In this document: positions 43,986 through 57,177 of the stretch, piece by piece
How positions within the stretch are numbered: position 1 is the stretch's first letter
How the letters are laid out: each line of letters starts with the position of its first letter
Assembly: GCA_029976075.1 (NCBI GenBank)
Contig: JARKNW010000057.1
Span: 124,001-188,000, forward strand
DNA: 64,000 nucleotides
Direction: 5' to 3'
From: Pleomorphomonas sp.
Lineage (GTDB): Bacteria; Pseudomonadota; Alphaproteobacteria; Rhizobiales; Pleomorphomonadaceae
Program-made: the position numbers and the translations under genes
Notes under the pieces: model-generated
The model's input: only the letters and a program-made list of their open reading frames with translations
What the model was told of the DNA's origin: nothing
Database searches by the model: none

Positions 43986-44887
43986 TGTGCAAGGATTGCG
44001 GCTGCGGCTCGGGCGGCACCGGCTACAAGATAAACGGCAAGACATCGGCGGAGTTGCACGGCCATTCGCATGATCATGATCATGGCCACGATCATCACCA
44101 CGACCACGATCATTCGCATGACCACCACCATGACCACTCTCACGATCATGATCACCACCACGTACATGCCGCCCCCCTCGCCGCCGTGCATCAGCCGGAT
44201 GTCGATGGCGAACGGGTGATCCGCATCGAGCGTGACATACTCGCCAAGAACAACGACATTGCGCGCCAAAACCGCGCTCGCCTTGCGACGACCGGGACGT
44301 TGGCGCTCAACCTCATGTCGTCACCCGGCTCTGGCAAGACCACTTTGCTGGTTCGGACCATTGAAGACCTGAAGGCAAAGTTTCCGATCGCCGTCATTGA
44401 AGGCGACCAGCAGACCGACAATGACGCCGAGCGTATCCGGGCCACCGGCGCGCGTGCCGTTCAGATCAATACTGGCAAGGGCTGTCACCTCGAGGCGGGA
44501 ATGGTCGGTGCCGCTCTCGATGACATCAAGGCGGAACCGGGCGGGCTGCTGTTCATCGAAAACGTCGGCAATCTCGTCTGTCCGGCCGGTTTCGACCTTG
44601 GGGAAGCCCACAAGGTGGTGGTTCTTTCCGTGACGGAGGGTGAAGACAAGCCGCTGAAATACCCGGACATGTTTGCCGTCGCCGACCTGCTGCTTCTCAA
44701 CAAGGCCGACCTGCTGCCGCACCTGAAATTCGATGTTGGCAAATGTCTGGCGGCAGCGCTCAGGGTCAATCCGCATCTCCAGACGCTCGTCGTTTCGGCT
44801 GAGACTGGCGAGGGCATGGCTGCCTTCTATGCCTGGCTCGAAGCGCGCGCCGCCCTTTCCCGCGCCGCGGCAGTCGTCAGGGCTTAA
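43985..44887 (+). CDS. hypB: Hydrogenase nickel incorporation GTPase HypB, His-rich
   Basis: 300 residues. The N-terminus CKDCGCG is the high-affinity nickel motif. A His/Asp-rich tract follows at about residues 26-62, with 22 His in 37 residues, expected to store nickel. The SIMIBI GTPase domain has [24 protein letters not shown], and NKADLLPH. It drives nickel insertion into HupL together with HypA. No hupE permease is in the operon, which may be why storage is emphasised. Confidence 0.97.
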
Positions 44888-44894
44888 CGAGACG

Positions 44895-47159
44895 ATGACC
44901 GCCGTGCTCACCTCCGATGCCTTTGCACCCGTGGCGCGCCTTTTCCTCAAGGTGAACGGTGCCGTGCAGGGCGTGGGCATGCGGCCATTCGTGCACCGGC
45001 TGGCCACCGAGTGTGGTTTGGCCGGATATGTCCGCAACGGGTCGGATGGCGTCACCATCGAGGTGGAAGGTGCGCGCGTCGAGGAGTTTGTCCGTCGGCT
45101 CGAACTGGAGGTACCGCCACTTGCTCGCATCGACACGGTTCTCCGCGAGGAGATTCCGGTTCTCGGCGACGTCGATTTCGTCATAAGGGAGAGTGTGGAC
45201 GGCGAGACCAAGACGCGCATTGTTGCCGATGCTGCCACCTGCGATGCTTGTCTCGACGAACTGTTCAACCCCGAAAGCCGCTATTTCGCCTATCCGTTCG
45301 TCAACTGCACGCATTGTGGTCCGCGCTACACCATCACCCGTCACCTGCCCTATGACCGGCGACAGACGTCAATGGCGTCTTTTCCAATGTGCCCGGATTG
45401 TGCCGCGGCCTATACGGACGTGCGGGACCGCCGTTTTCATGCCGAACCGGTTGCCTGCCCCGTTTGCGGACCGAAGCTGAGCCATCCGATTGCCGACATA
45501 GCAGCAGCAATCCGCGCGGGTCGTATCGTGGCGTTGAAAGGCATTGGTGGTTTCCACCTCGTCTGTGACGGCCGCAATGCTGACGCGGTAGCAGCTCTGC
45601 GTGAGAGGAAAGCGCGAGAGTTCAAGCCGTTTGCAATCATGGTGGCCAATACGGCCTCGGTCGGCACGGTTGCCGATGCGTCGCCTGAGGAGTTGAAGCT
45701 CTGTTCGTCGGTGGCCCGGCCGATCGTCCTGATGCGGGCAAGATGCGGCACGCTGGCGCCCGGCGTTTCTCCGGGCCTGTCCCGTGTCGGCGTCATGCTG
45801 GCTTACGCGCCGGTGCATCATCTGCTCTTCGCAGCGCTCGCCGGCCATGCGTTCGCCGCCCACGATCCGCACGCCCCCAATGACTTCGTGCTGGTGGCCA
45901 CATCGGCCAACCCTGGTGGAGAGCCGCTGGTGGTGGATGATGGCGATGCTACCCGCCGCCTCGCCGGCATCGCCGATATGATCGTTACCCACGATCGGCC
46001 CATCGTGGTTCGTGCCGATGACAGCGTGACCCAGGTCATCGCCGGCGCGCCGAGTATCATGCGTCGGGCGCGCGGCTATGTGCCCGAGCCGATCGCGCTT
46101 GGCGAAGATGGGCCAGCAACCCTCGCGCTCGGCGCGCATCTCAAGTCTACTGTGACACTGACGCGCGGCCGCGAGGCCTTCGTTTCCCAGCACGTCGGCG
46201 ACCTCGACACAGCGGAGACGCTGAGGTTCTACCGCGAGACGATCGCTCATCTCATCGACATAGTCGGCGTGAAGCCCGAGCTGATCGCCGCAGATCTCCA
46301 CCCTGATTATCGCTCCAGCCAGATGGCAGAGGAGTTCGGCCCGCCCGTCATCCGAGTGCAGCACCATGCCGCACATGTTGTCGCGGTGGCGGCGGAAGCG
46401 GATATCAGGGAGCCAGTGCTTGGCCTCGCCCTCGACGGGCACGGTCTCGGTGACGATGGCGGAGCCTGGGGAGGCGAGTTGCTTCTGGTGGGCGGACCGA
46501 CACACCGCCGGCTCGGCCACCTCGCGCCGTTGCCGCTGCCAGGTGGGGACCGCGCCGCCCGCGAGCCATGGCGGATGGGGGCCGGAGCCCTCGCCTCTCT
46601 CGGACGGCCAGAGCTTGCTGCCGACTTCTTTCCCGACCGGCCATTGGCTGGGCCGATTGCCGGCCGGGTCACCTCCGGCGCGGATCGGCTCAACACGACC
46701 TCACTCGGCCGGTTGTTCGATGCAGCGGCGGCGCTGCTCGGGGTTCGTGCCGTGCAGGATTACGAGGGGCAGGCGGCGATGGAGCTGGAGGCGCTTGTCG
46801 ACGAGCCAGTCTCGCTCACAGGTGGGTTCACACTTTCGGACGGCGTCCTGTCCTTCTCGCCGCTACTTGCCCACCTCGCCCTTGTTCGTCCCAACTCACA
46901 CGATGGCGCATCGCTGTTCCACGGCACGCTGATCGAAGGTCTTGCCGCCCTCGCGCGCCATGGAGCAGCCGCCTCCGGCCTCGGTTCGATCGCTCTGGGT
47001 GGTGGCTGCCTGATGAATCGCGTCCTGGCCGAAGGACTGTCGGCCGCGCTCGTTCAATCCAACCTCACTCCCCTCCTCGCCCGGCGTCTGCCGGCCAACG
47101 ACGGCGGTCTTTCCTTCGGACAGGCCGTTCTCGCCCGCCGAGCCCTTTCGGAGACCTGA
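44895..47159 (+). CDS. hypF: Carbamoyltransferase HypF
   Basis: 754 residues. Domains in order: acylphosphatase (VQGVGMRPFVHRL, about residues 18-105), two zinc fingers (CDACLDEL ... CTHCGPRYT and CPDCAAAY ... CPVCGPKL), a YrdC-like domain (about 190-380, KGIGGFHLVCD) and a Kae1-like domain (HHAAHVVAVAAE, LDGHGLGDDGGAWGGEL, GGGCLMNR). It makes the cyanide ligands from carbamoyl phosphate with HypE. ATG at 44895 follows the hypB stop by seven bases; the frame is open upstream only as a shadow. Confidence 0.97.
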   Translation: MTAVLTSDAFAPVARLFLKVNGAVQGVGMRPFVHRLATECGLAGYVRNGSDGVTIEVEGARVEEFVRRLELEVPPLARIDTVLREEIPVLGDVDFVIRESVDGETKTRIVADAATCDACLDELFNPESRYFAYPFVNCTHCGPRYTITRHLPYDRRQTSMASFPMCPDCAAAYTDVRDRRFHAEPVACPVCGPKLSHPIADIAAAIRAGRIVALKGIGGFHLVCDGRNADAVAALRERKAREFKPFAIMVANTASVGTVADASPEELKLCSSVARPIVLMRARCGTLAPGVSPGLSRVGVMLAYAPVHHLLFAALAGHAFAAHDPHAPNDFVLVATSANPGGEPLVVDDGDATRRLAGIADMIVTHDRPIVVRADDSVTQVIAGAPSIMRRARGYVPEPIALGEDGPATLALGAHLKSTVTLTRGREAFVSQHVGDLDTAETLRFYRETIAHLIDIVGVKPELIAADLHPDYRSSQMAEEFGPPVIRVQHHAAHVVAVAAEADIREPVLGLALDGHGLGDDGGAWGGELLLVGGPTHRRLGHLAPLPLPGGDRAAREPWRMGAGALASLGRPELAADFFPDRPLAGPIAGRVTSGADRLNTTSLGRLFDAAAALLGVRAVQDYEGQAAMELEALVDEPVSLTGGFTLSDGVLSFSPLLAHLALVRPNSHDGASLFHGTLIEGLAALARHGAAASGLGSIALGGGCLMNRVLAEGLSAALVQSNLTPLLARRLPANDGGLSFGQAVLARRALSET

Positions 47160-47161
47160 CC

Positions 47162-47404
47162 ATGTGCCTTGCCGTTCCCGCTCTCGTCACCGAGCTTCTG
47201 CCTGACAACATGGCCAAGATCAGCCTGGATGGCGTGTCGATGCCCATTTCCACCGCTCTGGTGAAGAACGTGGCCGTCGGTGACTATGTCATCGTCCACG
47301 TCGGCTATGCCTTGTCCAAAGTCGATCCGGACGAAGCACGGCGGACGCTCGACCTGCTCGACGAGGCGCGCAATGTGCCGCTAGCCGCCGGAGGCGCCAG
47401 ATGA
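47162..47404 (+). CDS. hypC: Hydrogenase maturation chaperone HypC
   Basis: 80 residues beginning MCLAVPALV, with Cys 2 that binds iron together with HypD. VGDYVIVHVGYALSKVDPDEA is the family core. It transfers the Fe(CN)2CO unit to HupL. It begins two bases after the hypF stop and overlaps hypD by four bases (ATGA). Confidence 0.96.
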   Translation: MCLAVPALVTELLPDNMAKISLDGVSMPISTALVKNVAVGDYVIVHVGYALSKVDPDEARRTLDLLDEARNVPLAAGGAR

Positions 47405-48555
47405 AATACGTCGACGAATATCGCGACGGCGATAAGGCGCGCGACATCGCGGCGGCCATCGCAGCTGAAGTCCGGCCCGATCGCTCCTATGCCTTCATGG
47501 AGTTTTGCGGCGGCCACACCCATGCGATCTCGCGTTACGGCATCGAGGACCTGTTGCCTGCCAACGTGCGCATGATCCATGGTCCGGGTTGCCCGGTTTG
47601 CGTTCTTCCGATTGGTCGCATCGATGACGCCATTCGCCTGGCGAAGCGACCTGAGGTTACGCTCTGCACCTATGCCGACCTGATGCGCGTACCGGCCTCT
47701 GGCGGTCTCAGCCTGATGAAGGCCAAGGCAGCCGGCTCAGATATTCGCATGGTCTACTCCTCGCTCGACGCCATCCGCATCGCCGAGGCCAATCCCGAGC
47801 GGCAGGTGGTGTTCTTCGCCATCGGGTTCGAGACGACCACTCCGCCAACCGCCGTTGCGCTGAAAGCGGCCGATGCCAAGGGTCTCAAGAACTTTTCGAT
47901 ATATTGCAATCACGTGCTGACGCCGGTCGCCATGCGCGCCATCCTTGACATGCCGCCGACACCAGGCGAGCCGCCGATCGCCATCGAGGGGTTCGTCGGG
48001 CCGTCGCACGTATCGACCATCATCGGCATGGATCCCTATAAGGTGTTTGCCGAAGACTATCGCAAGCCGGTGGTCATCGCCGGGTTCGAACCGCTCGATG
48101 TGATGTATGCCATTCTGATGCTGGTGCGTCAGGTCAATGAACAGCGGGCCGAGGTGGAAAACCAGTACATCCGCGCAGTCAGGACGGAAGGCAATCGCGT
48201 CGCCATCGACCTCTGTGACGAAGTGTTCGAGCTGCGGGACAGCTTCGAGTGGCGAGGTCTTGGTGCCGTGCCGAAGAGTGCGCTGAAGCTCCGGGACGCC
48301 TTCGCGTTCTATGACGCCGAGAAGCGTTTCACCATCGAAACACAGCCGGCCGAGGATAATCCGGCCTGCGAGTGCGGCGCGATCCTGCGTGGCCAGAAGA
48401 AACCGGCCGACTGCCGCCTGTTCGGCACTGTCTGTACGCCGGAAACGCCGACCGGCGCCTGCATGGTGTCATCGGAAGGCGCTTGCGCCGCCCACTGGAC
48501 CTATGGTCGTTTTCGCACGCGCCAAACTGACGCAGGCCATCGGAGAAGCGCATGA
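47401..48555 (+). CDS. hypD: Hydrogenase maturation protein HypD
   Basis: 384 residues. Fe-S protein on which the Fe(CN)2CO group is assembled. Conserved motifs: FCGGHTHAISRYG with the iron-binding Cys, GPGCPVCVLP, GFETTTPPTA and the C-terminal Cys-rich [4Fe-4S] site (CECGAILRGQKKPADCRLFGTVCTPETP in pieces). It overlaps hypC and hypE by four bases each. Confidence 0.97.
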   Translation: MKYVDEYRDGDKARDIAAAIAAEVRPDRSYAFMEFCGGHTHAISRYGIEDLLPANVRMIHGPGCPVCVLPIGRIDDAIRLAKRPEVTLCTYADLMRVPASGGLSLMKAKAAGSDIRMVYSSLDAIRIAEANPERQVVFFAIGFETTTPPTAVALKAADAKGLKNFSIYCNHVLTPVAMRAILDMPPTPGEPPIAIEGFVGPSHVSTIIGMDPYKVFAEDYRKPVVIAGFEPLDVMYAILMLVRQVNEQRAEVENQYIRAVRTEGNRVAIDLCDEVFELRDSFEWRGLGAVPKSALKLRDAFAFYDAEKRFTIETQPAEDNPACECGAILRGQKKPADCRLFGTVCTPETPTGACMVSSEGACAAHWTYGRFRTRQTDAGHRRSA

Positions 48556-49598
48556 CCAAGACTTTCCGCCGAAAGCTCGATCTGAAGGCCGGTCGAGTCG
48601 ACATGAGCCACGGTGCGGGCGGCCGCGCCATGGCCGAGCTGATTTCGTCGATCTTCAAGGATGCCTTCGGCAACGAGCTGCTCGATCAGGGCAACGATCA
48701 GGCGAGCTTCCCGACACCGGCCGGCGGTCGCATGGTGATGACCACTGACGGTTATGTCGTATCACCGATCTTCTTTCCTGGCGGCGATATCGGGTCTCTC
48801 GCCGTGCACGGCACCGTCAACGATCTCGCCATGGCGGGGGCAAAGCCGCTCTACCTTTCAGCAAGCTATATCATCGAGGAAGGGTTCCCGCTCGGCGATC
48901 TGAAGCGAATTGCCGAATCCATGGGAGCGGCAGCCAAGGCGGCCGGCGTGATGATCGTCACTGGCGACACCAAGGTGGTGGAGCGCGGCAAGGCCGACGG
49001 TGTCTTCATCTCGACGGCCGGTGTCGGCGTGGTGCCGGACGGTCTCGCATTGTCCGGGAATCAGGCGCGTCCGGGCGACAAGGTAATTGTCTCCGGGTCG
49101 ATGGGCGACCATGGCGTCGCCATCATGTCGAGTCGCGAGAATCTCAGCTTCGAAACGGAAATCCTGTCTGACAGCGCAGCGCTCAATGGGCTCGTCGAGA
49201 TCATGGTCGCGGCAGCCGGGGCTAACCTGCGTCTGATGCGCGATCCGACCCGTGGTGGTCTTGCCGCCACGCTTAACGAGCTGGCTCATCAGTCAGACGT
49301 CGGATTTCGTATCGTCGAGGATCGCATCCCGATCAAACGTCAGGTCGCAGCAGCCTGTGAGCTCCTCGGTCTCGATCCGCTCAACGTCGCCAACGAGGGC
49401 AAGCTCGTTGCCGTGGTGTCGGCCGACGCGGCGGAGGTTCTGGTCCAGGCCATGCGGTCTCATCCGCTCGGGGTGGATGCGGCAATTATTGGCGAGGCCG
49501 TCGAGGACGATCAGCATTTCGTACAGATGACCACTGGCTTTGGCGGAGGTCGGATTGTCGATTGGCTTGCTGGCGAGCAACTGCCCCGCATCTGTTGA
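48552..49598 (+). CDS. hypE: Hydrogenase maturation dehydratase HypE
   Basis: 348 residues, PurM-like fold. It dehydrates the thiocarboxamide on its C-terminal Cys (the protein ends PRIC) to thiocyanate for the iron cyanide ligands. N-terminal SHGAGGRAMAELI, GNDQASFP and MRDPTRGGLAATLNE are typical. It is the last maturation gene of the hup/hyp cluster; hypX is absent. Confidence 0.97.
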   Translation: MTKTFRRKLDLKAGRVDMSHGAGGRAMAELISSIFKDAFGNELLDQGNDQASFPTPAGGRMVMTTDGYVVSPIFFPGGDIGSLAVHGTVNDLAMAGAKPLYLSASYIIEEGFPLGDLKRIAESMGAAAKAAGVMIVTGDTKVVERGKADGVFISTAGVGVVPDGLALSGNQARPGDKVIVSGSMGDHGVAIMSSRENLSFETEILSDSAALNGLVEIMVAAAGANLRLMRDPTRGGLAATLNELAHQSDVGFRIVEDRIPIKRQVAAACELLGLDPLNVANEGKLVAVVSADAAEVLVQAMRSHPLGVDAAIIGEAVEDDQHFVQMTTGFGGGRIVDWLAGEQLPRIC

Positions 49599-49967
49599 AG
49601 AAATGCGCGTTTGGCACTTCTGCCTGTCTCGCCGCTCAATGTTGAAGGTGTGCGCATAATCGTTGACGAGGGGCGAAGCGCCGCGACTTCTCTGCAACAG
49701 CATTGTGGCGTCCGCCGAATTGAATTGATTGAATACCAACAAACAATTTCGGCGCCGTCGATCAGCCGCTATGCTTCGGCCAATCCTTGAGTCTGTCATG
49801 ACAGCCGCCTCGTCCGCCGCCGACATCGGTCGCGCCGGAACTGCGGCTCCCGCACCACTCGGAGCGGGTCCGCCGGCGTCAATCGACGCCTCAACGAACG
49901 ACGTCCCAGTGGCTGTCGTAAGTTGACTTCACGGAATCGCATCAGCGGTCCGAAACCCGTTCGGGGA
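49599..49967. other. Intergenic region between hypE and the Hyf/Ehr-like module
   Basis: About 370 bases. It contains an AT-richer patch near 49715-49745 (TTGAATTGATTGAATA) that may hold a promoter for the module. A 51-codon frame from ATG 49771 to 49926 has no ribosome site and is probably spurious. No terminator hairpin with a T-run follows hypE, so readthrough from the hup operon into the module remains possible. Confidence 0.4.
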
Positions 49968-51998
49968 ATGAAATTGACAATGCCGATCGTAGCGGCCCTT
50001 TTGAGCGTCGCCGGCCTTGCTGGTCTCGCCGTTGTGGCGCCGATCCTTACCGCCCGGCGCGCGGTCTGGGCGACGCCTTTCGTCTATGGGGCCTGCTTCG
50101 TCTCGGCTGCGGCGTTGCTGGTCTGTGGACTGTTCGGCCTTCTGGGCGGCAGTGTGTTCCAGGGGAGCGTTCGCCTGCCAGTCGGACTGCCCTGGATTGG
50201 GGCTCACTTCGTCCTCGACCCGCTCAGTGCCGCCTTCCTGGTCATTGTCGATCTCGGTGCCATGGTGGCTTCGTTTTATGCCGTAGGCTATGGCGCCCAT
50301 GAGGAAGAACCCGGGCGGGTCCTGCCCTTCTATCCCGCCTTCCTTGCCGGGATGAATCTGGTAGTGCTTTCGGCCGATGCCTTCAGCTTCCTGGTCGCCT
50401 GGGAGTTCATGTCGCTGAGTTCATGGGCACTGGTCATGGCTCACCACCATGACGCCGAAAACCGTCGCGCCGGCTACGTTTACCTGCTGATGGCGTCCTT
50501 TGGCACGCTGATGTTGCTGTTGGCCTTTGGTCTTCTGGCCGGGCCAGATGGGGACTATGTCTTCTCGGGCATCCGAACCGCCGAACACGTCCCCTGGATT
50601 GCGGGTCTCGTACTGGTTCTGATGCTGCTCGGTGCCGGCTCCAAGGCGGGGCTGGTCCCCTTGCATGTCTGGTTGCCTCTCGCCCATCCCGCCGCACCCA
50701 GCCATGTCTCGGCACTGATGTCGGGCGTCATGACCAAGGTAGCGGTCTACGGCTTCATTCGTGTCGTGTTCGACCTTGCCGGTCCACCGTCGTGGTGGTG
50801 GTCGGTGTTGGTGCTGATCCTGGGGGCAGGCTCGGCGGTCCTCGGCGTCCTGCACGCCGTCCTGCAGCGCGACCTCAAGCGCCTGCTGGCCTACTCGACG
50901 GTTGAAAATATCGGCATCGTCTTCATTGGCCTGGGGCTCGGCCTGGCATTCAAGACCAACGACATGGCCGGAGCGGCTGCACTAGCGGTGACCGCCTCGA
51001 TCTTTCATGCCTTCAATCATTCACTGTTCAAAAGCCTGCTGTTCTTCGGAGCCGGCAACGTGCTTACCGGTGCAGGGGAACGCGACATCGAAAAGCTCGG
51101 CGGGCTGATCCATCGGATGCCGGAGACGGCCTATCTCTTTCTCGGTGGGTGCCTTGCCATTTCCGCATTGCCGCCTCTCAACGGCTTCGTGTCGGAATGG
51201 CTGATCCTGCAGGCCATTCTTCTCAGTCCTCAACTACCGCAGTGGGCATTGCGATTCCTGGTACCGGCATCGGGCGCCATGTTGGCCTTGGCCGCGGCAC
51301 TTGCAGCCGCCTGCTTCGTTCGAGGCTTTGGCATCACATTTCTCAGCAGGCCGCGTTCGCCGGCCGCCGAGATGGCAAAAGAAGTGAGCCGATGGCAGAT
51401 CCGGGCGATGTATGTCCTGTTGATCATCTGCCTCATCGCGGGTGTCTTCCCCGGGCCATTTCTCGATGCCTTGTCACCGGTTTCGCAGATGCTGGTCAAC
51501 GGTGCCATGCCGAAGCAGCCAATCCTGCCGCATCTTGCGATCATTCCGATTTCCGAAAGTCGTAGCTCCTACTCAGGTTTCCTTGTCTTCTTCTTCATCC
51601 TGATGGCGAGCTGGGCTGCTATCCGGGTCATTCACAACTTTGCTTCGCGAGCCGTGCGCCGCGCCCCGGCTTGGGACTGCGGGTTCCCCGATGCTTCGCC
51701 GGCTATCCAGTATACGGCCGACAGCTTCGCTCAACCGATCCGCCGGGTGTTCGGTCCCCTCGCATTTCGGGCCAAGGTCAGCCAGACCATGCCGCTGCCG
51801 GGCGACATGGCACCGGCCCGTCTGACGCTCACGCTTCGTGATTTGGTCTGGGACTTCGTCTATGTGCCACTGGAGAACGCCGTTCTCTATGCGGCCGAGC
51901 GGCTCAACATCCTGCAGTTTCTAACGATCCGCAGCTATCTGAGCCTCGTGTTCGCGGCGTTGGTCCTCCTTCTCGTTCTGGTAGCAACATGGGCCTGA
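49968..51998 (+). CDS. hyfB: Antiporter-like subunit of Ehr complex (HyfB/NuoL-like)
   Basis: About 676 residues, some 15 transmembrane helices. The Proton_antipo_M domain is clear: SLSSWALVMAHHHD, GSKAGLVPLHVWLPLAHPAAPSHVSALMSGVMTKVAVYGFIR and LQRDLKRLLAYSTVENIG, with the functional Lys and His/Glu residues of complex-I antiporters. It would translocate H+ or Na+. The C-terminal cytoplasmic segment (AWDCGFPD) fits HyfB rather than NuoL. Start choice between ATG 49968 and 49980 is open. It is the first gene of a six-gene run with overlapping junctions. Confidence 0.92.
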   Translation: MKLTMPIVAALLSVAGLAGLAVVAPILTARRAVWATPFVYGACFVSAAALLVCGLFGLLGGSVFQGSVRLPVGLPWIGAHFVLDPLSAAFLVIVDLGAMVASFYAVGYGAHEEEPGRVLPFYPAFLAGMNLVVLSADAFSFLVAWEFMSLSSWALVMAHHHDAENRRAGYVYLLMASFGTLMLLLAFGLLAGPDGDYVFSGIRTAEHVPWIAGLVLVLMLLGAGSKAGLVPLHVWLPLAHPAAPSHVSALMSGVMTKVAVYGFIRVVFDLAGPPSWWWSVLVLILGAGSAVLGVLHAVLQRDLKRLLAYSTVENIGIVFIGLGLGLAFKTNDMAGAAALAVTASIFHAFNHSLFKSLLFFGAGNVLTGAGERDIEKLGGLIHRMPETAYLFLGGCLAISALPPLNGFVSEWLILQAILLSPQLPQWALRFLVPASGAMLALAAALAAACFVRGFGITFLSRPRSPAAEMAKEVSRWQIRAMYVLLIICLIAGVFPGPFLDALSPVSQMLVNGAMPKQPILPHLAIIPISESRSSYSGFLVFFFILMASWAAIRVIHNFASRAVRRAPAWDCGFPDASPAIQYTADSFAQPIRRVFGPLAFRAKVSQTMPLPGDMAPARLTLTLRDLVWDFVYVPLENAVLYAAERLNILQFLTIRSYLSLVFAALVLLLVLVATWA

Positions 51999-52942
51999 TC
52001 CTCGCCATTCTCGTTCAGGGCGTCCAGATGGTGCTGGTGTTGGCGCTGGCGCCGGGGCTTGTCGGCTTTACCCGCAAGGTCAAGGCACGCCTGTTGCGCC
52101 GGCAAGGACCTTCGGTTCTGCAGCCCTATCGCGACCTCTTGCGTCTCGTGCGCAAGGAGGCGGTGCTGGCCGACAACGCGTCCTGGCTGTTCCGCAACGC
52201 GCCCTACCTCATCTTCGCAACGACCTGGGTTGCGGCGGCACTGGTTCCGACCTTCGCGGCCGGGCTGCACTTCTCCTGGGCGGCGGACCTCATCGCCATC
52301 ACAGCCCTGCTCGGTTCGGCGCGCTTTTTCCTGGCGCTTGCCGGCATGGATATTGGTACTGCATTCGGCGGTATCGGTTCGAGCCGCGAAATGCTGTTCG
52401 CGACATTGGCCGAACCGGCGATGATCATGATCGTGTTCACGGTAGCTCTGGTAGCCGGCTCGACGCAGCTGTCGACGGTTGCCGAGTTCATGGTGGATCA
52501 TGCCACTCTGCGCGTCTCTCTTGGCCTCGCCCTGATCGGCCTCATCATCGTGGCACTCACCGAGAATGCCCGTGTGCCAGTTGACAATCCGGCCACGCAT
52601 CTTGAACTCACCATGGTGCATGAAGCCATGGTGCTGGAGTATTCCGGCCGTCACCTCGCGGTCATCGAGCTTGCTGCTGCACTGAAGCTCCTTCTTTACA
52701 TCTCTCTCATCGCCTGCATTTTCGCCCCATGGGGCATGGCGCGCCAGGACGATGCCCTCCTTGGCATGGCCTTTGGTGTCGTGACCTGGATGGGGAAGCT
52801 CGCCGTGGGCGGCTTCCTGATGGTGTTGTTCGAGACCGCGATCGCCAAGATGCGCGTCTTCCGCGTCCCAGAGTTCGTCGGCGGTGCGTTGATGCTCGGC
52901 CTCCTCGGCACCTTGCTGCTGTTCGTTTCGCGGAGCTTCTGA
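51989..52942 (+). CDS. hyfC: Membrane anchor subunit of Ehr complex (HyfC/NuoH-like)
   Basis: 317 residues, about eight transmembrane helices. Respiratory-chain subunit 1 family: RRQGPSVLQPYRDLLRLVRKE, TENARVPVDNPATHLELTMVHEAMVLEYSGRHLAVIEL, the latter forming the quinone/connection loop with conserved Glu residues. It connects the hydrophilic pair to the antiporter subunits. It overlaps hyfB by ten bases and hyfE by one (TGATG). Confidence 0.93.
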   Translation: MGLILAILVQGVQMVLVLALAPGLVGFTRKVKARLLRRQGPSVLQPYRDLLRLVRKEAVLADNASWLFRNAPYLIFATTWVAAALVPTFAAGLHFSWAADLIAITALLGSARFFLALAGMDIGTAFGGIGSSREMLFATLAEPAMIMIVFTVALVAGSTQLSTVAEFMVDHATLRVSLGLALIGLIIVALTENARVPVDNPATHLELTMVHEAMVLEYSGRHLAVIELAAALKLLLYISLIACIFAPWGMARQDDALLGMAFGVVTWMGKLAVGGFLMVLFETAIAKMRVFRVPEFVGGALMLGLLGTLLLFVSRSF

Positions 52943-53604
52943 TGGAACGCTTTTCCCTCGACGCTGCGCATCTTCTGGCTGGCGGCATGGTCCTGGTGAG
53001 CTTCATGATGCTCTACCAGAACCGCATCCTCGGTCTGCTCAACGTCTTCGCGGCGCACGCCGTGGTGCTTTCGCTCTCGGTCGCCTGGCAAGCCTATGTC
53101 CAGTCGGCGCCGCACCTCTTCGTCACTGCGGCCATTGCGCTGATCCTGAAGGCAATCATCATCCCGGTGGCACTGCACCACATGGTGCTGCGGCTTGGCG
53201 TCCATCGCGACATCGAGACGGTGGGTGGCATCGGCTTGACCATGCTGATGGGAATAGGTCTCGTGGCGCTGTCCATGGTGGTGATGCTTCCCGCCGCAGC
53301 CGAGGCCGACCCGATCGCCCGCGAGGATTTGGCGCTTGCCCTCTCGGTTATCCTGCTCGGCCTTCTGATGATGGTGACGCGCCAAAACGCCATCAGCCAG
53401 ATCGTCGGGTTCATGAGCCTTGAAAACGGATTGGTGCTGGCTGCGACGGGCGCCCGTGGCATGCCGCTGGTCGTGGAGATCTCCGTTGCCTTCTCGGTGC
53501 TGGTCGCCTTCATCGTGATCGGTGTTTTCCTGTTTCGCATCCGCGAGCGTTTCGACACCATCGATACCCAAGCCCTCGACGACTTCCGGGAGGGCCGGGA
53601 ATGA
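52942..53604 (+). CDS. hyfE: Membrane subunit HyfE-like of Ehr complex
   Basis: 220 residues with about six hydrophobic helices. The family markers SFMMLYQNRILGLLNVFAAHAVVLSLSVAWQ and RQNAISQIVGFMSLENGLVLAATG (NuoK-like part) fit hydrogenase-4 component E. ATG at 52942 overlaps the hyfC stop; longer readings upstream lie inside hyfC. It overlaps hyfF by four bases. Confidence 0.92.
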   Translation: MERFSLDAAHLLAGGMVLVSFMMLYQNRILGLLNVFAAHAVVLSLSVAWQAYVQSAPHLFVTAAIALILKAIIIPVALHHMVLRLGVHRDIETVGGIGLTMLMGIGLVALSMVVMLPAAAEADPIAREDLALALSVILLGLLMMVTRQNAISQIVGFMSLENGLVLAATGARGMPLVVEISVAFSVLVAFIVIGVFLFRIRERFDTIDTQALDDFREGRE

Positions 53605-55070
53605 CCGCCTTTCTTCATCAGCTCCCATTCGCCCCCATCGATGCCGTACTGGTCGTGCCCGGCGTCGCGGCTCTGCTTCTTGCGCTCATTTCGAAGTACA
53701 AGCTCGGCGCCCGCGTCAATATGCTGGCTTCCGGGCTGACGTTCCTGTTCGCGCTGACGCTTCTCGTCGAGCGGCCCGACCCAACAGTGAGCTTCCTGTT
53801 CGTCGATGACCTCAATGTGGTCTTCGTCGTGCTCGGCACCTTCGTCGGCTTCACCACCTCGATCTTCTCGGCCAGCTATATCGGGCACGAAATCGAGATC
53901 GGCCGCTTGAAGCCGGGTTATATCCGCTTTTATCACGGCATGTACCAGGCGCTCTCCTTTTCGATGAACCTCGGGTTGACCGCCAACAATGTCGGACTGA
54001 TGTGGGTGGCGGTGGAACTCGCCACGCTGACCACCGTCCTGATGGTCGGTCTCTATCGCACGCAGGCAGCGCTTGAAGCGGCGTGGAAGTATTTCATCCT
54101 GGGATCGGTAGGCATCGCGCTCGCCTTGTTCGGCACCATCCTGATCTACATGGCCGCCCGGCCAGTGATCGGCGAAGGTCACGACGCGATGGTTTGGACG
54201 ACGCTGATTGCCAACGCAGCGGCGTTCAGCCCGGAATTGCTCAACGTCGCGTTTGTCTTTCTGATGCTAGGCTACGGCACCAAGGTCGGTCTCGCCCCCC
54301 TGCACGCCTGGCTGCCGGATGCCCATGCCGAGGGTCCGACCCCGATCTCTGCGGTTCTGTCGGGACTTCTGTTGAACGTCGCGCTCTATGCACTCTTGCG
54401 CTTCAAGATGCTGCTTGCAGCCAATCCCTTCGCGGTGGCGCCCGGGCCCCTCCTCGTCACCCTCGGTCTGGTGTCGCTGATCTTCGCTGCCTTCATGTTG
54501 TACCTGAGGCGGGACATCAAGCGACTGTTCGCCTATTCGTCGATCGAGCATATGGGGCTGATCGCCTTTGCCTTTGGCATGGGGGGGCCGCTCGCCAATT
54601 TCGCCGGCCTTCTTCACATGACCATGCATTCGCTCACCAAGTCGGCTATCTTCTTCGCGGTTGGCCAAGTGGCACAGGTCAAGGGAACGCAAAAGATCGC
54701 CGATATCCGCGGCCTCACCGAGAGTCATCCGACGCTCGGCTGGAGCCTTATCGTCGGGGTCGCAGCCATCGCCGGCCTACCCCCCATGGGAATCTTTACC
54801 AGTGAGTTCCTGCTGGTGAGTTCCACCTTCGCCAGAGAGCCGTTGCTAGCCATCCCGCTGGTGGTCGGCCTGCTCCTCGCGTTCGGCGCGCTCGTCTGGC
54901 GGCTCACCGGGATCGCCTTCGGCAAGCCTTCGCCCAGTGTGGTCAACGCCGGACGACGGCCATCGATGCTGCCGCTCATCATCCATCTTCTTCTGGTGCT
55001 GATCGCCGGTCTTTATCTGCCTGGACCCTTGGTCGCATGGTTCCAGAACGTTGCGCGCATGCTGGGATGA
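53601..55070 (+). CDS. hyfF: Antiporter-like subunit of Ehr complex (HyfF/NuoN-like)
   Basis: 489 residues, about 14 helices. Proton_antipo_M signature: WVAVELATLTTVLMVGLYRTQAALEAAWKYFILGSVGIALALFG, GTKVGLAPLHAWLPDAHAEGPTPISAVLSGLLLNVALYALLR and RRDIKRLFAYSSIEHMGLI. Key Glu, Lys and His residues of ion channels are present. It follows hyfE with a four-base overlap; hyfG starts four bases after its stop. Confidence 0.93.
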   Translation: MTAFLHQLPFAPIDAVLVVPGVAALLLALISKYKLGARVNMLASGLTFLFALTLLVERPDPTVSFLFVDDLNVVFVVLGTFVGFTTSIFSASYIGHEIEIGRLKPGYIRFYHGMYQALSFSMNLGLTANNVGLMWVAVELATLTTVLMVGLYRTQAALEAAWKYFILGSVGIALALFGTILIYMAARPVIGEGHDAMVWTTLIANAAAFSPELLNVAFVFLMLGYGTKVGLAPLHAWLPDAHAEGPTPISAVLSGLLLNVALYALLRFKMLLAANPFAVAPGPLLVTLGLVSLIFAAFMLYLRRDIKRLFAYSSIEHMGLIAFAFGMGGPLANFAGLLHMTMHSLTKSAIFFAVGQVAQVKGTQKIADIRGLTESHPTLGWSLIVGVAAIAGLPPMGIFTSEFLLVSSTFAREPLLAIPLVVGLLLAFGALVWRLTGIAFGKPSPSVVNAGRRPSMLPLIIHLLLVLIAGLYLPGPLVAWFQNVARMLG

Positions 55071-55074
55071 GATC

Positions 55075-56640
55075 ATGAGCACGCTTCGTACCGCCCTTCT
55101 CAATGCCGCGCTGACCATCGAAGAGCAAAAGCCTTGGCCACGCATTACAGTCGATGCCGATACCTGGCGACAGGCGACATTGGCTGTCGCTGCAGGCAAT
55201 GCCACCCTATCGGGTCTTTGGGCCGAACCCAGCGCAGTGCACATGGCGATCCTTGACGACGAGGACGGCGCGCTCATGGTGCTGACGCTCGGCGCGCCGG
55301 ACGGCCATTTCCCTTCGGTCGGTCTCACTCACCCGCCGGCCCAACGCCTCGAGCGGGCAATCGTCGATCTCTACGGTCTCGTTCCCGAAGGCATGCCGGA
55401 CGACAGGCGCTGGCTCGACCATGACCGCTGGGGCCTTCGTGCGCCGCTGGGCAGAGCTCCGAGAGCCGTACCTGCTGACGGCGCCCCGTATTCTTTCTTG
55501 AAAGCCGAAGGACCTCCCCTCCATCAGATCGCTGTTGGCCCCGTGCATGCAGGGATCATCGAGCCCGGTCATTTCAGATTTTCCGCTAACGGCGAGATTG
55601 TCGTGCGGCTGGAGGAACGGCTGGGATATGTCCACAAGGGAATCGAAAGTCTTCTCACCGATACGACGCTCGAAGCTGCGGCAAAAATAGTCGCCCGCGT
55701 CTCCGGTGACAGCACAGTGGCTTACTCATTTGCTTTTGCCCGCGCAGCGGAAGCGGCTCTGGGTGTCGGCGTACCGCAGCGGGCGATCTGGCTGCGTGCC
55801 CTGATGGCCGAACTCGAGAGGCTGGCCAACCATCTCGGTGATATTGGCGCCATCTGCAACGACGCGGCCTTTGCGTTGATGCTTGCCCACTGCGGCATGC
55901 TGCGCGAAGAGGTGCTGCGCACGGCCAAAGTTGCGTTCGGGCATCGATTGATGATGGATCGGATCGTCCCGGGTGGCGTCACCTCCGACCTTGCGGATAC
56001 GGCATCGATCAAGACACTCACTACCCGCGTTCGTCAGCGCTTCCCACGCCTTGTCGAGCTTTACGACAACACCGCTTCACTTCAGAACCGGACCGTCTCC
56101 ACAGGCCGACTTGATCCCGATCTCGCTCGCCGCTTCGGAGCTGGCGGACCGATCGGCAGAGCCTCGGGGCGCGGCTTTGATGCTCGCAAGACCCCGAGTT
56201 ACCCACCCTATGGCGACCTCGATTTCAAGGTGGGCAAGCGTGAGAACGGCGATGTCGATGCAAGAATCTGGGTGCGTGTCGATGAGGTTTACGAGAGCCT
56301 AGAGCTGATAGAGCAAATTGTGGACCGTCTGCCCGCCGGCCCTATCGCTTATCCATTAAACCCGGCGCTGCGAGAGCGGCGGGTTCCTCAGGCTGGTGGC
56401 CTTGCCAATGAGCCGCACGACAACTCCACGGAGGGGCTCGCCGTGGTCGAGGGATTCCGCGGCGACGTGCTGGTCTGGCTCAGAACAGACGAGACCGGCC
56501 GCGTGCTGCGGGGCGCAGTGCGCGACCCTTCGGTCTTCCAGTGGCCGCTGCTCGAGGCGGCAATAGAAGGCAACATCGTCGCCGACTTCCCGATCTGCAA
56601 CAAGTCCTTCAACTGTTCCTACTCGGGACAAGACCTTTGA
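55075..56640 (+). CDS. hyfG: Hydrogenase-4-like large subunit lacking NiFe ligands (HyfG/NuoCD fusion)
   Basis: 521 residues. An N-terminal NuoC-like domain (about 30-130, ERAIVDLYGLVPEGMPDDRRWL) is fused to a NuoD/large-subunit domain (RLGYVHKGIESLL). Where [NiFe] enzymes have CxxC in L1, this protein reads RVSGDS (Ser 210, Ser 213). The C-terminus is FPICNKSFNCSYSGQDL, with Cys 508 and Cys 514 spaced by five instead of DPCxxC. A NiFe site is therefore not expected, and it is better classed with Ehr complexes or complex I than with hydrogenases. The reaction is unknown. ATG at 55075 was chosen over an upstream one inside hyfF. Confidence 0.9.
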   Translation: MSTLRTALLNAALTIEEQKPWPRITVDADTWRQATLAVAAGNATLSGLWAEPSAVHMAILDDEDGALMVLTLGAPDGHFPSVGLTHPPAQRLERAIVDLYGLVPEGMPDDRRWLDHDRWGLRAPLGRAPRAVPADGAPYSFLKAEGPPLHQIAVGPVHAGIIEPGHFRFSANGEIVVRLEERLGYVHKGIESLLTDTTLEAAAKIVARVSGDSTVAYSFAFARAAEAALGVGVPQRAIWLRALMAELERLANHLGDIGAICNDAAFALMLAHCGMLREEVLRTAKVAFGHRLMMDRIVPGGVTSDLADTASIKTLTTRVRQRFPRLVELYDNTASLQNRTVSTGRLDPDLARRFGAGGPIGRASGRGFDARKTPSYPPYGDLDFKVGKRENGDVDARIWVRVDEVYESLELIEQIVDRLPAGPIAYPLNPALRERRVPQAGGLANEPHDNSTEGLAVVEGFRGDVLVWLRTDETGRVLRGAVRDPSVFQWPLLEAAIEGNIVADFPICNKSFNCSYSGQDL

Positions 56641-56655
56641 GACGGACGACCGATC

Positions 56656-57177
56656 ATGCGTAGAATGCTGCTTGAGGGCCTGTTCCGGCGACCTGTGACC
56701 GAAGACGCGCCGGTGGTTGCCGACGCCGAGATTGACGCATTGGCTACGCGACTGGGCGCTGCCGCAAAAGTACGCCTCGGTCGCAGCCTGTCGATCCGCG
56801 AAGTGGACGCCGGATCATGCAACGGTTGCGAACTGGAAATTCACGCCCTCAACAACAGCTATTATGACGTTGAACGCTTCGGCCTTCGGTTCGTCGCCTC
56901 GCCACGCCATGCAGATGTTCTGATGGTGACTGGGCCAGTAACCGCCAACATGCGCGAAGGTCTCGAGCGGACCTATGCAGCGACACCGGCCCCCAAATGG
57001 GTAGTGGCGGTCGGCGATTGTGCCGCCGGATGCGGAGTGTTCGGGAAAAACTATGCCGTTATCGGCGCCGTGTCAGACATTATCCCCGTCGACTTGATCA
57101 TTCGGGGCTGTCCTCCCGAGCCAATCGACATGCTGAGGGGGTTGACCAGCCTCATAGAAGCAAGCCTGCGCGGCTAG
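56656..57177 (+). CDS. hyfI: Fe-S subunit of Ehr complex (HyfI/NuoB-like)
   Basis: 173 residues. Cluster N2-type ligands are complete: Cys 55 and Cys 58 (SCNGCELE), Cys 122 (VGDCAAG) and Cys 152 (RGCPPEP), with an extra Cys 126. This small subunit pairs with HyfG and would pass electrons to or from quinone near HyfC. There is no neighbouring HyfH- or HyfA-type ferredoxin. Its stop overlaps that of the convergent squalene-synthase-like gene. Confidence 0.93.
   Translation: MRRMLLEGLFRRPVTEDAPVVADAEIDALATRLGAAAKVRLGRSLSIREVDAGSCNGCELEIHALNNSYYDVERFGLRFVASPRHADVLMVTGPVTANMREGLERTYAATPAPKWVVAVGDCAAGCGVFGKNYAVIGAVSDIIPVDLIIRGCPPEPIDMLRGLTSLIEASLRG

Follow-up and report, generated by a model that had tools for sequence, protein, structure and literature searches.

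What might a hydrogenase-4-like membrane complex do once the ligands of the nickel-iron (NiFe) site are gone from its large subunit? The question is raised by six genes at positions 49968-57177 of a 64,000-nucleotide stretch of Pleomorphomonas sp. DNA (contig JARKNW010000057.1; hereafter, the window), whose source genome comprises 5.36 Mb in 177 contigs and is 94.4% complete, with an estimated contamination of 7.9%. The module is the hyq operon, already described as the "endo-hydrogenase" of Azorhizobium caulinodans (Ng 2009, Ciccolella 2010, Sprecher 2012). This closest described relative, for which H2-related and diazotrophic deletion phenotypes have been published, was overlooked by the original prediction, made from the sequence alone, which framed the function as unknown. 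We conclude that the operon probably encodes a redox-linked ion pump of the Ehr type, belonging to the group 4a hydrogenase line, and not a [NiFe] hydrogenase. As judged from alignments, the residues of the pump and the ligands of the iron-sulfur (Fe-S) cluster are intact, and the motifs of the large subunit are strictly kept.

All six open reading frames (ORFs), hyqBCEFGI, are on the + strand, and the Pfam scan agrees with the naming by NCBIfam. Two of them encode antiporter-type subunits, namely hyqB (49968..51998, 676 aa, HyfB/NuoL-like; NF005086, 842.8 bits, cut-off 667) and hyqF (53601..55070, 489 aa, HyfF/NuoM-like; NF005043, 836.8 bits, cut-off 533). A NuoH/HyfC-like membrane anchor is specified by hyqC (51989..52942, 317 aa; PF00146, 132.5 bits), and a HyfE-like membrane subunit by hyqE (52942..53604, 220 aa), whose match to the hydrogenase 4 membrane subunit model NF008556 (E 7.6e-23, 81.5 bits) stays under the cut-off of 136. 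The large subunit, fused NuoC/NuoD-like, is encoded by hyqG (55075..56640, 521 aa) and was named from Pfam, alignments and its match to HycE. Finally, hyqI (56656..57177, 173 aa) encodes a NuoB/HyfI-like Fe-S subunit (PF01058, 107.1 bits), which also exceeds the cut-off of the NCBIfam NuoB subfamily model (125 versus 116 bits); the HyfE, NuoH and NuoD models match hyq products under their own cut-offs. Thus, the hyfB-C-E-F-G-I-like gene set, with two antiporter-like subunits and a NuoH-like anchor, is as predicted. The tight overlap expected of the whole set is found among the first four genes (hyqB/C, C/E and E/F), whereas gaps of 4 and 15 nt lie at F/G and G/I.

Numbering from Met as residue 1, HyqG has the motif SGDS at 210-213, where [NiFe] hydrogenases have the L1 CxxC, with S210 and S213 in place of both cysteines, as the original prediction had noted. 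In addition, alignment to HycE (7z0s_E) and to E. coli HyfG and HycE places S515 and G518 at the C-terminal (L2) CxxC pair, a second loss that had gone unnoticed. Group 4 [NiFe] hydrogenases are recognized by both pairs; in HyqG all four ligand positions are substituted, and the prediction of a module with no NiFe site is borne out. The best solved relative of HyqG is HycE 7z0s_E (E 1.6e-62 by sequence, 2.2e-82 by profile).

The distribution of these substitutions was followed in two sets. From the order, 297 genomes were sampled, of which 46 had a match; 35 were counted as hyq genomes (HyqG identity of 54-100%), and the other 11, matching at just 29-34% identity, were left out. The HyqG alignment comprises 32 of the 35 (without G296, G157 and G249) and was built on whole-protein similarity. 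It is therefore free of the bias of the second set, the best 80 named matches, for which the search started from the peptides IEPGHFRF and NKSFNCSY, so that conservation of those residues there is partly due to selection. SGDS is present in 32/32 aligned HyqG of the order, and the named set has SGDS (72), SGDA (4), SGDT (3) and CGDS (1), with no CxxC at the L1 or L2 position in any of the best 80. The C-terminal extension is absent from all 79 named proteins that reach the C-terminus (one is truncated), while E. coli HyfG and HycE extend past the last alignment column of HyqG. The closest named HyqG among the matches listed is that of Pleomorphomonas sp. NRK KF1 (88% identity). A sequencing error hiding a CxxC was considered and rejected; it is very unlikely, since SGDS is kept in 32/32 of the order and in 72 of the best 80 named proteins. 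The phylogeny that had been suggested as a check, here from quick trees with Shimodaira-Hasegawa-like approximate likelihood ratio test (SH-aLRT) support alone, comprises 37 large subunits, and a single branch (96% SH-aLRT) separates the 30 CxxC-less non-NuoD rows from the Hyf/Hyc rows that bear CxxC. The deepest forks stay open, and long branches (NuoD, L074, the second Variovorax copy and Rhodococcus) blur the deep order.

If HyqG nevertheless formed a [NiFe] enzyme, with unusual ligands matured by the hyp genes directly upstream of the operon, it should depend on Hyp proteins as group 4 hydrogenases do. HypD is missing in 15/35 hyq genomes of the order, NifD (over cut-off) in 17/35 and both in 14/35, and the genomes lacking both include the single-contig G050, G194 and G216. 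In 14 of the 15 HypD-less genomes, the same 14 that have no NifD, the sole PF00374 match, if any, is HyqG. The fifteenth, G249, was dropped as an example, since other NiFe large subunits are found there and its HypD probably fell into a gap of the assembly; the 15/35 and the Fisher test below still include this genome. Likewise, G212 and G282 are counted as lacking NifD, yet they show other nif-type matches and may have gaps. Among 32 named genomes hand-picked as isolates from the best 80 loci, and thus a subset of isolates, HypD is missing in 12, with NifD over cut-off in 4 of those and not in 8; Afipia sp. 1NLS2 and Ensifer adhaerens SD006 are examples of hyq carriers in which neither HypD nor NifD was found. 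Moreover, other clients of hyp are encoded in the window's genome, namely HupSL and a group 4 enzyme that bears CxxC. A working [NiFe] hydrogenase masked by sequence error or unusual ligands is thus extremely improbable.

On the HyqG tree of 32 rows, genomes with and without HypD are intermixed (5 HypD state changes), and for the group with neither HypD nor NifD at least 4 changes are required by branches with good support. Because hyq occurs without HypD, and mixed on the tree, Hyq, judged by gene content, does not depend on NiFe maturation. By the same kind of evidence, hyq is not restricted to N2 fixers. The statement in PMC2930871 that non-diazotrophs generally lack hyq does not hold in this sample, since NifD is missing in 17/35 hyq genomes. 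A suspected hyq-nif linkage in Rhodopseudomonas palustris 2.1.18 was rejected, as nifD is on a contig of 28,876 bases and hyq on one of 53,271 bases. In two genomes, G027 (locus L072) and G266 (L073), hyq coexists with a Hyf-type large subunit that bears CxxC.

What the complex has kept is the pump. Charged residues common to the E. coli homologues are conserved in at least 97% of loci in HyqB (E146, K226, K257, H347, H351, K355 and E410; 66 loci) and HyqF (E139, K228, H343, K347 and E402; 78 loci), as are acidic ones in HyqC (E134, E142, E192, D199, E206, E212 and E217; 71 loci). Aligned with E. coli Hyf, they correspond to the charged antiporter residues and acidic NuoH-type residues of complex I, and we take them to be the pump residues. 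The predicted full set of N2 ligands in the NuoB-like subunit is also present: C55, C58, C122 and C152 of HyqI each occur in 32/32 aligned proteins. Here, C55-x2-C58 (CNGC) has the hydrogenase-type CxxC spacing, unlike complex I Nqo6 with its adjacent CC (PMC7684303, also for the spacing rule). These are the ligands of the Hyq family, published for Azorhizobium HyqI as Cys-55, -58, -112 and -152, with the third at 122 here versus 112 as printed.

In the large subunit, E163 is retained at the place of MbhL E21, the proton Glu of hydrogenases, while the complex I quinone ligands Nqo4 H38 and Y87 correspond in the alignment to I162 and G211 (roles of these residues and of the Nqo6 CC from PMC7684303). 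Near-invariant polar residues occupy the former NiFe ligand places (E163, S210-G-D-S213, N509-K-S511, N513 and D520). Across ten aligned CxxC-less large subunits, GPxHAxxIEPGHFR and xGD[ST] are kept in 10/10 and NKSxN in 9/10.

A mechanism can be proposed in which these polar residues of HyqG would line the former NiFe pocket, electrons would travel via the single proximal Fe-S cluster between a partner encoded outside the operon and some small substrate bound in the pocket, and the redox reaction there would either power the passage of H+ or Na+ through HyqC, E, F and B or be powered by it. The most likely version of the pump, itself only tentative, would be proton-coupled chemistry on a small polar substrate, favoured by the retained hydrogenase proton Glu and by the absence of the quinone ligands known from complex I; a quinone bound in a different manner is the less likely, and on the whole unlikely, version. 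Counted inside the same reading is a complex I-like donor:quinone oxidoreductase, in which a soluble low-potential protein would reduce the cluster, quinone would accept the electrons at the G/I/C interface, and ions would be pumped. For such an enzyme speak the homology of the six core subunits to those of complex I, the conserved acidic residues of HyqC and the predicted fold of HyqG. An AlphaFold2 model from 35 sequences (mean predicted local distance difference test, pLDDT, 78.3; predicted template modelling score, pTM, 0.83) retrieves HycE first (E 7.2e-28) and complex I NuoCD second in Foldseek, and supports a HycE/NuoCD-like fold. With I162 and G211 at the H38 and Y87 places, and a CxxC instead of the adjacent CC in HyqI, we consider this donor:quinone form rather improbable.

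Several observations pull against the redox-linked pump. The operon encodes no electron-input subunit, so its redox link is inferred; the originally predicted redox-driven ion pump stays plausible. The pocket segments 139-188 and 497-521 of the model have pLDDT below 50, and the model is therefore usable for the overall fold alone. Furthermore, hyq is enriched in genomes with HypD (Fisher p 1.7e-5) and NifD (1.1e-7; neither corrected for kinship), and the HypD/NifD labels are clustered on the HyqG tree, which weighs against independence from both. The strongest point comes from Azorhizobium, where the deletion phenotypes point to H2 as substrate: in PMC3357923, at 20 uM O2, a hup deletion mutant released 16 units of H2 versus 540 for the hup hyq double deletion, and below 1 uM O2 61,000 versus 14,000.

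The lack of an electron-input subunit, with HyqR as sole recurring neighbour, would also suit a redox-silent antiporter or pH/ion valve in which the peripheral arm is merely structural. Given that the cluster ligands are invariant (32/32 HyqI) and that the large-subunit motifs are under strong constraint, such a valve seems doubtful. The attempt to find a partner gene through conserved neighbourhood was given up: HyqR alone recurs at hyq loci, and the other recurring ORFs, which were not scanned with family models, resemble antisense shadows or chance. Among the best 80, hyqR is present in 34 of the 59 named loci that have hyqB and more than 1.5 kb upstream of it, and it was not found at the hyq loci of the Pleomorphomonas-kin genus.

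The published work on Azorhizobium carries the discoverers' own view, that Hyq is a membrane H2:quinone oxidoreductase, reversible with O2 supply, with a non-[NiFe] hydrogen site. According to three papers (PMC2650096, PMC3357923, PMC2930871), the operon is hyqRBCEFGI, expression depends on NifA, and precise deletion slows diazotrophic growth (doubling time 21% longer), increases H2 loss from 12 to 175 units at 20 uM O2 and lowers H2 evolution from 7,100 to 2,600 below 1 uM O2. Thus, part of the deletion test under H2 that had been proposed for the present operon is already in the literature. There, H2 recycling is also reported to persist when all 20 genes of the hup/hyp operon are deleted and to occur in Rhodocista centenaria, which has no hup/hyp ("data not presented"). 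The hydrogenase-type CxxC of HyqI, E163 of HyqG and the position of hyq beside hup/hyp in the present genus would all fit such an enzyme. Against it, all four NiFe ligands are gone and no known H2-activating cofactor fits, a NiFe site in HyqG being called "uncertain, if not unlikely" by Sprecher 2012; the complex I quinone ligands are absent, NifD is missing in nearly half of the hyq genomes (17/35), and a cell-free assay was not available to the authors. We therefore give this view little credence as it stands, while a role for Hyq entirely outside H2 metabolism fits poorly with the published H2 phenotypes. These phenotypes could be direct, through a new hydrogen site, or indirect, via the energy or redox state of the cell.

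The same view draws support from three cysteines. Sprecher 2012 reported HyqG of eight genera without either CxxC and with three conserved Cys (258, 491 and 497 of 504). The window HyqG has C261, C508 and C514, the last two at 13 and 7 residues before the end, and among the best 80 named proteins, of alphaproteobacterial type, the three are near-invariant (79/80, 78/79 and 75/79), a count biased upward for the last Cys by the search peptide NKSFNCSY. Position 508 is, however, Leu in 3/32 HyqG of the order, and in the Variovorax and Burkholderia multivorans relatives the three cysteines are replaced by Gly, Ile and Leu, with xGD[ST] retained; those of Rhodococcus and Methylocalor retain some of the three. 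A three-Cys metal site as catalytic centre of the wider clade was therefore rejected.

Compared with A. caulinodans Hyq as described in the papers, the window operon has the six structural genes in identical order, a HyqG without CxxC but with Cys 7 and 13 residues before the end, and Cys 55, 58 and 152 in HyqI. It differs in having no hyqR, in lying directly behind hypE, whereas the published hup/hyp and hyq are unlinked, and in having no NifA/sigma54 sites above chance before hyqB. The same operon, preceded by a helix-turn-helix gene, is found in Rhizobium johnstonii 3841, whose HyqG has 504 aa and is 63.7% identical to that of the window; R. leguminosarum, strain unspecified, is among the hyq carriers in the Hyq papers. 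Marreiros 2013 is reportedly a reference for the Ehr kind. Ehr complexes, known from Geobacter, comammox Nitrospira, ammonia-oxidising archaea and mycobacteria (PMC6349859, PMC7894505, PMC10284858, PMC10432482, PMC6728331), combine antiporter-type subunits with group 4 hydrogenase-like subunits without CxxC, their function being unsettled. By that definition (PMC6349859, PMC10432482), a group 4-like large subunit without NiFe ligands beside antiporter-type subunits, the window operon belongs to the Ehr kind, as predicted. The suggested likeness to mycobacterial Rv0082-Rv0087 fits as well: the hyc-family genes of the Rv0081-Rv0087 stretch are described as homologous to Ehr (PMC6728331), and a Rhodococcus plasmid operon encodes a HyqG that is 34.4% identical with the same two motifs, in the actinobacterial order I-B-C-E-F-G instead of B-C-E-F-G-I.

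With E. coli hydrogenase-4 (HyfA-J), Hyq shares homologues of HyfB, C, F and I at 28-37% identity, of HyfG at 30% and a HyfE counterpart by family model, and it lacks HyfA, HyfD, HyfH, the NiFe ligands and the C-terminal extension. Respiratory complex I and Pyrococcus furiosus MBS share the superfamily and the membrane pump core. The H38, Y87 and adjacent CC of the former are not found in Hyq, while the latter keeps two of four NiFe Cys without E21, the reverse of Hyq (PMC7684303).

Some further loci deserve mention. Plasmid 3 of Variovorax sp. PBL-E5 (L084, 1-16012) has two Ehr/hyf-like operons about 3.4 kb apart, whose large subunits share 32% and 45% identity with HyqG of the window. On both it and another Burkholderiales plasmid (L087), a hyq-like operon is near spermidine synthase-like genes, with HPr and enolase genes also near in L087 and a universal stress protein gene in L084, neighbourhoods that may resemble low-oxygen persistence clusters. 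On a Methylovirgula sp. HY1 plasmid (L082, 1669-16721), the hyq operon is followed by fae and lies divergent to an additional F0F1 ATP synthase operon that begins with atpD, which could hint at ion coupling. At locus L042 (G203), HyqG is 63% identical to that of the window, HyqF 86% and HyqC 85%, so that this HyqG may be either faster-evolving or exchanged.

Directly upstream of hyqB, and overlooked by the original prediction, are hup/hyp genes on the + strand: from 36094, those for hydrogenase small and large subunits, cytochrome b, HupD, a HybE-type chaperone and HypB, and at 44733..49598 the NiFe maturation genes hypF, hypC, hypD and hypE (TIGR00143, TIGR00075 and TIGR02124 over cut-off), with hypC, at the end of the ORF 46568-47404, named from sequence alone and not by the family scan. 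In the genus, hyp adjoins hyq in 7/7 sampled genomes (the window and six loci), as against 0/25 other loci of the order, within the flanking sequence covered, and 2 of the best 80 named loci, both of which belong to the genus sample; Ciccolella 2010 describes hup/hyp and hyq as unlinked in every case. The neighbourhood fits the low-oxygen, H2-related physiology of the Azorhizobium deletions. Elsewhere in the window's genome (L008, 4051-5190), a second group 4 large subunit with RICSLC and DPCLSC, and thus all four NiFe ligands, adjoins small subunit, ferredoxin-type and membrane genes, with a close copy in G223 (L075), a genome of the window's own genus.

The 369-base gap between hypE and hyqB contains a 26-base near-palindrome, AATTGATTG-N8-CAAACAATT (49723..49748), possibly an operator and offered as a lead only. 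It has no second match in its own genome at up to 2 mismatches, and the expectation in the window at 3 mismatches is 0.03 for a pattern defined post hoc; in the genus it is exact at 5/7 loci, varied at 1 and absent at 1. No sigma70 promoter or terminator was found in 49400-50100, and no NifA/sigma54 site upstream of hyqB in the window. With strict patterns in the 700 bases before the estimated start, and base-composition shuffles for comparison, a sigma54-like site occurs at 4/32 loci (2.4 expected) and an upstream activator sequence at 3/32 (3.1 expected), so NifA/sigma54 control in this genus was rejected. Such a promoter is published for A. caulinodans alone, and hence is no family-defining trait.

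Apart from archaeal Mbx/MBS, the reaction of Ehr complexes is unsettled in the literature, and Hyq is the one complex of this kind for which deletion phenotypes were found, in which altered H2 uptake and evolution conflict with the lost hydrogen-activating site. The comparison sharpens the conflict: many genomes carry hyq but neither NiFe maturation genes nor nitrogenase, so the basic reaction of Hyq is not NiFe catalysis and is not confined to the recycling of H2 from nitrogenase. While the kind of operon was known, the independence from HypD and NifD, the limits of the three-Cys rule and the hyp-hyq adjacency are new here, and the conserved HyqG motifs are direct targets for point mutants. 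Very improbably, Hyq might handle H2 at the rebuilt pocket without [NiFe], [FeFe] or [Fe], where E163 would relay protons and the hydrogenase-type proximal cluster would relay electrons; with hyq lacking HypD in so many genomes, the cofactor would then have to be new. If true, this would be a new kind of biological hydrogen chemistry.

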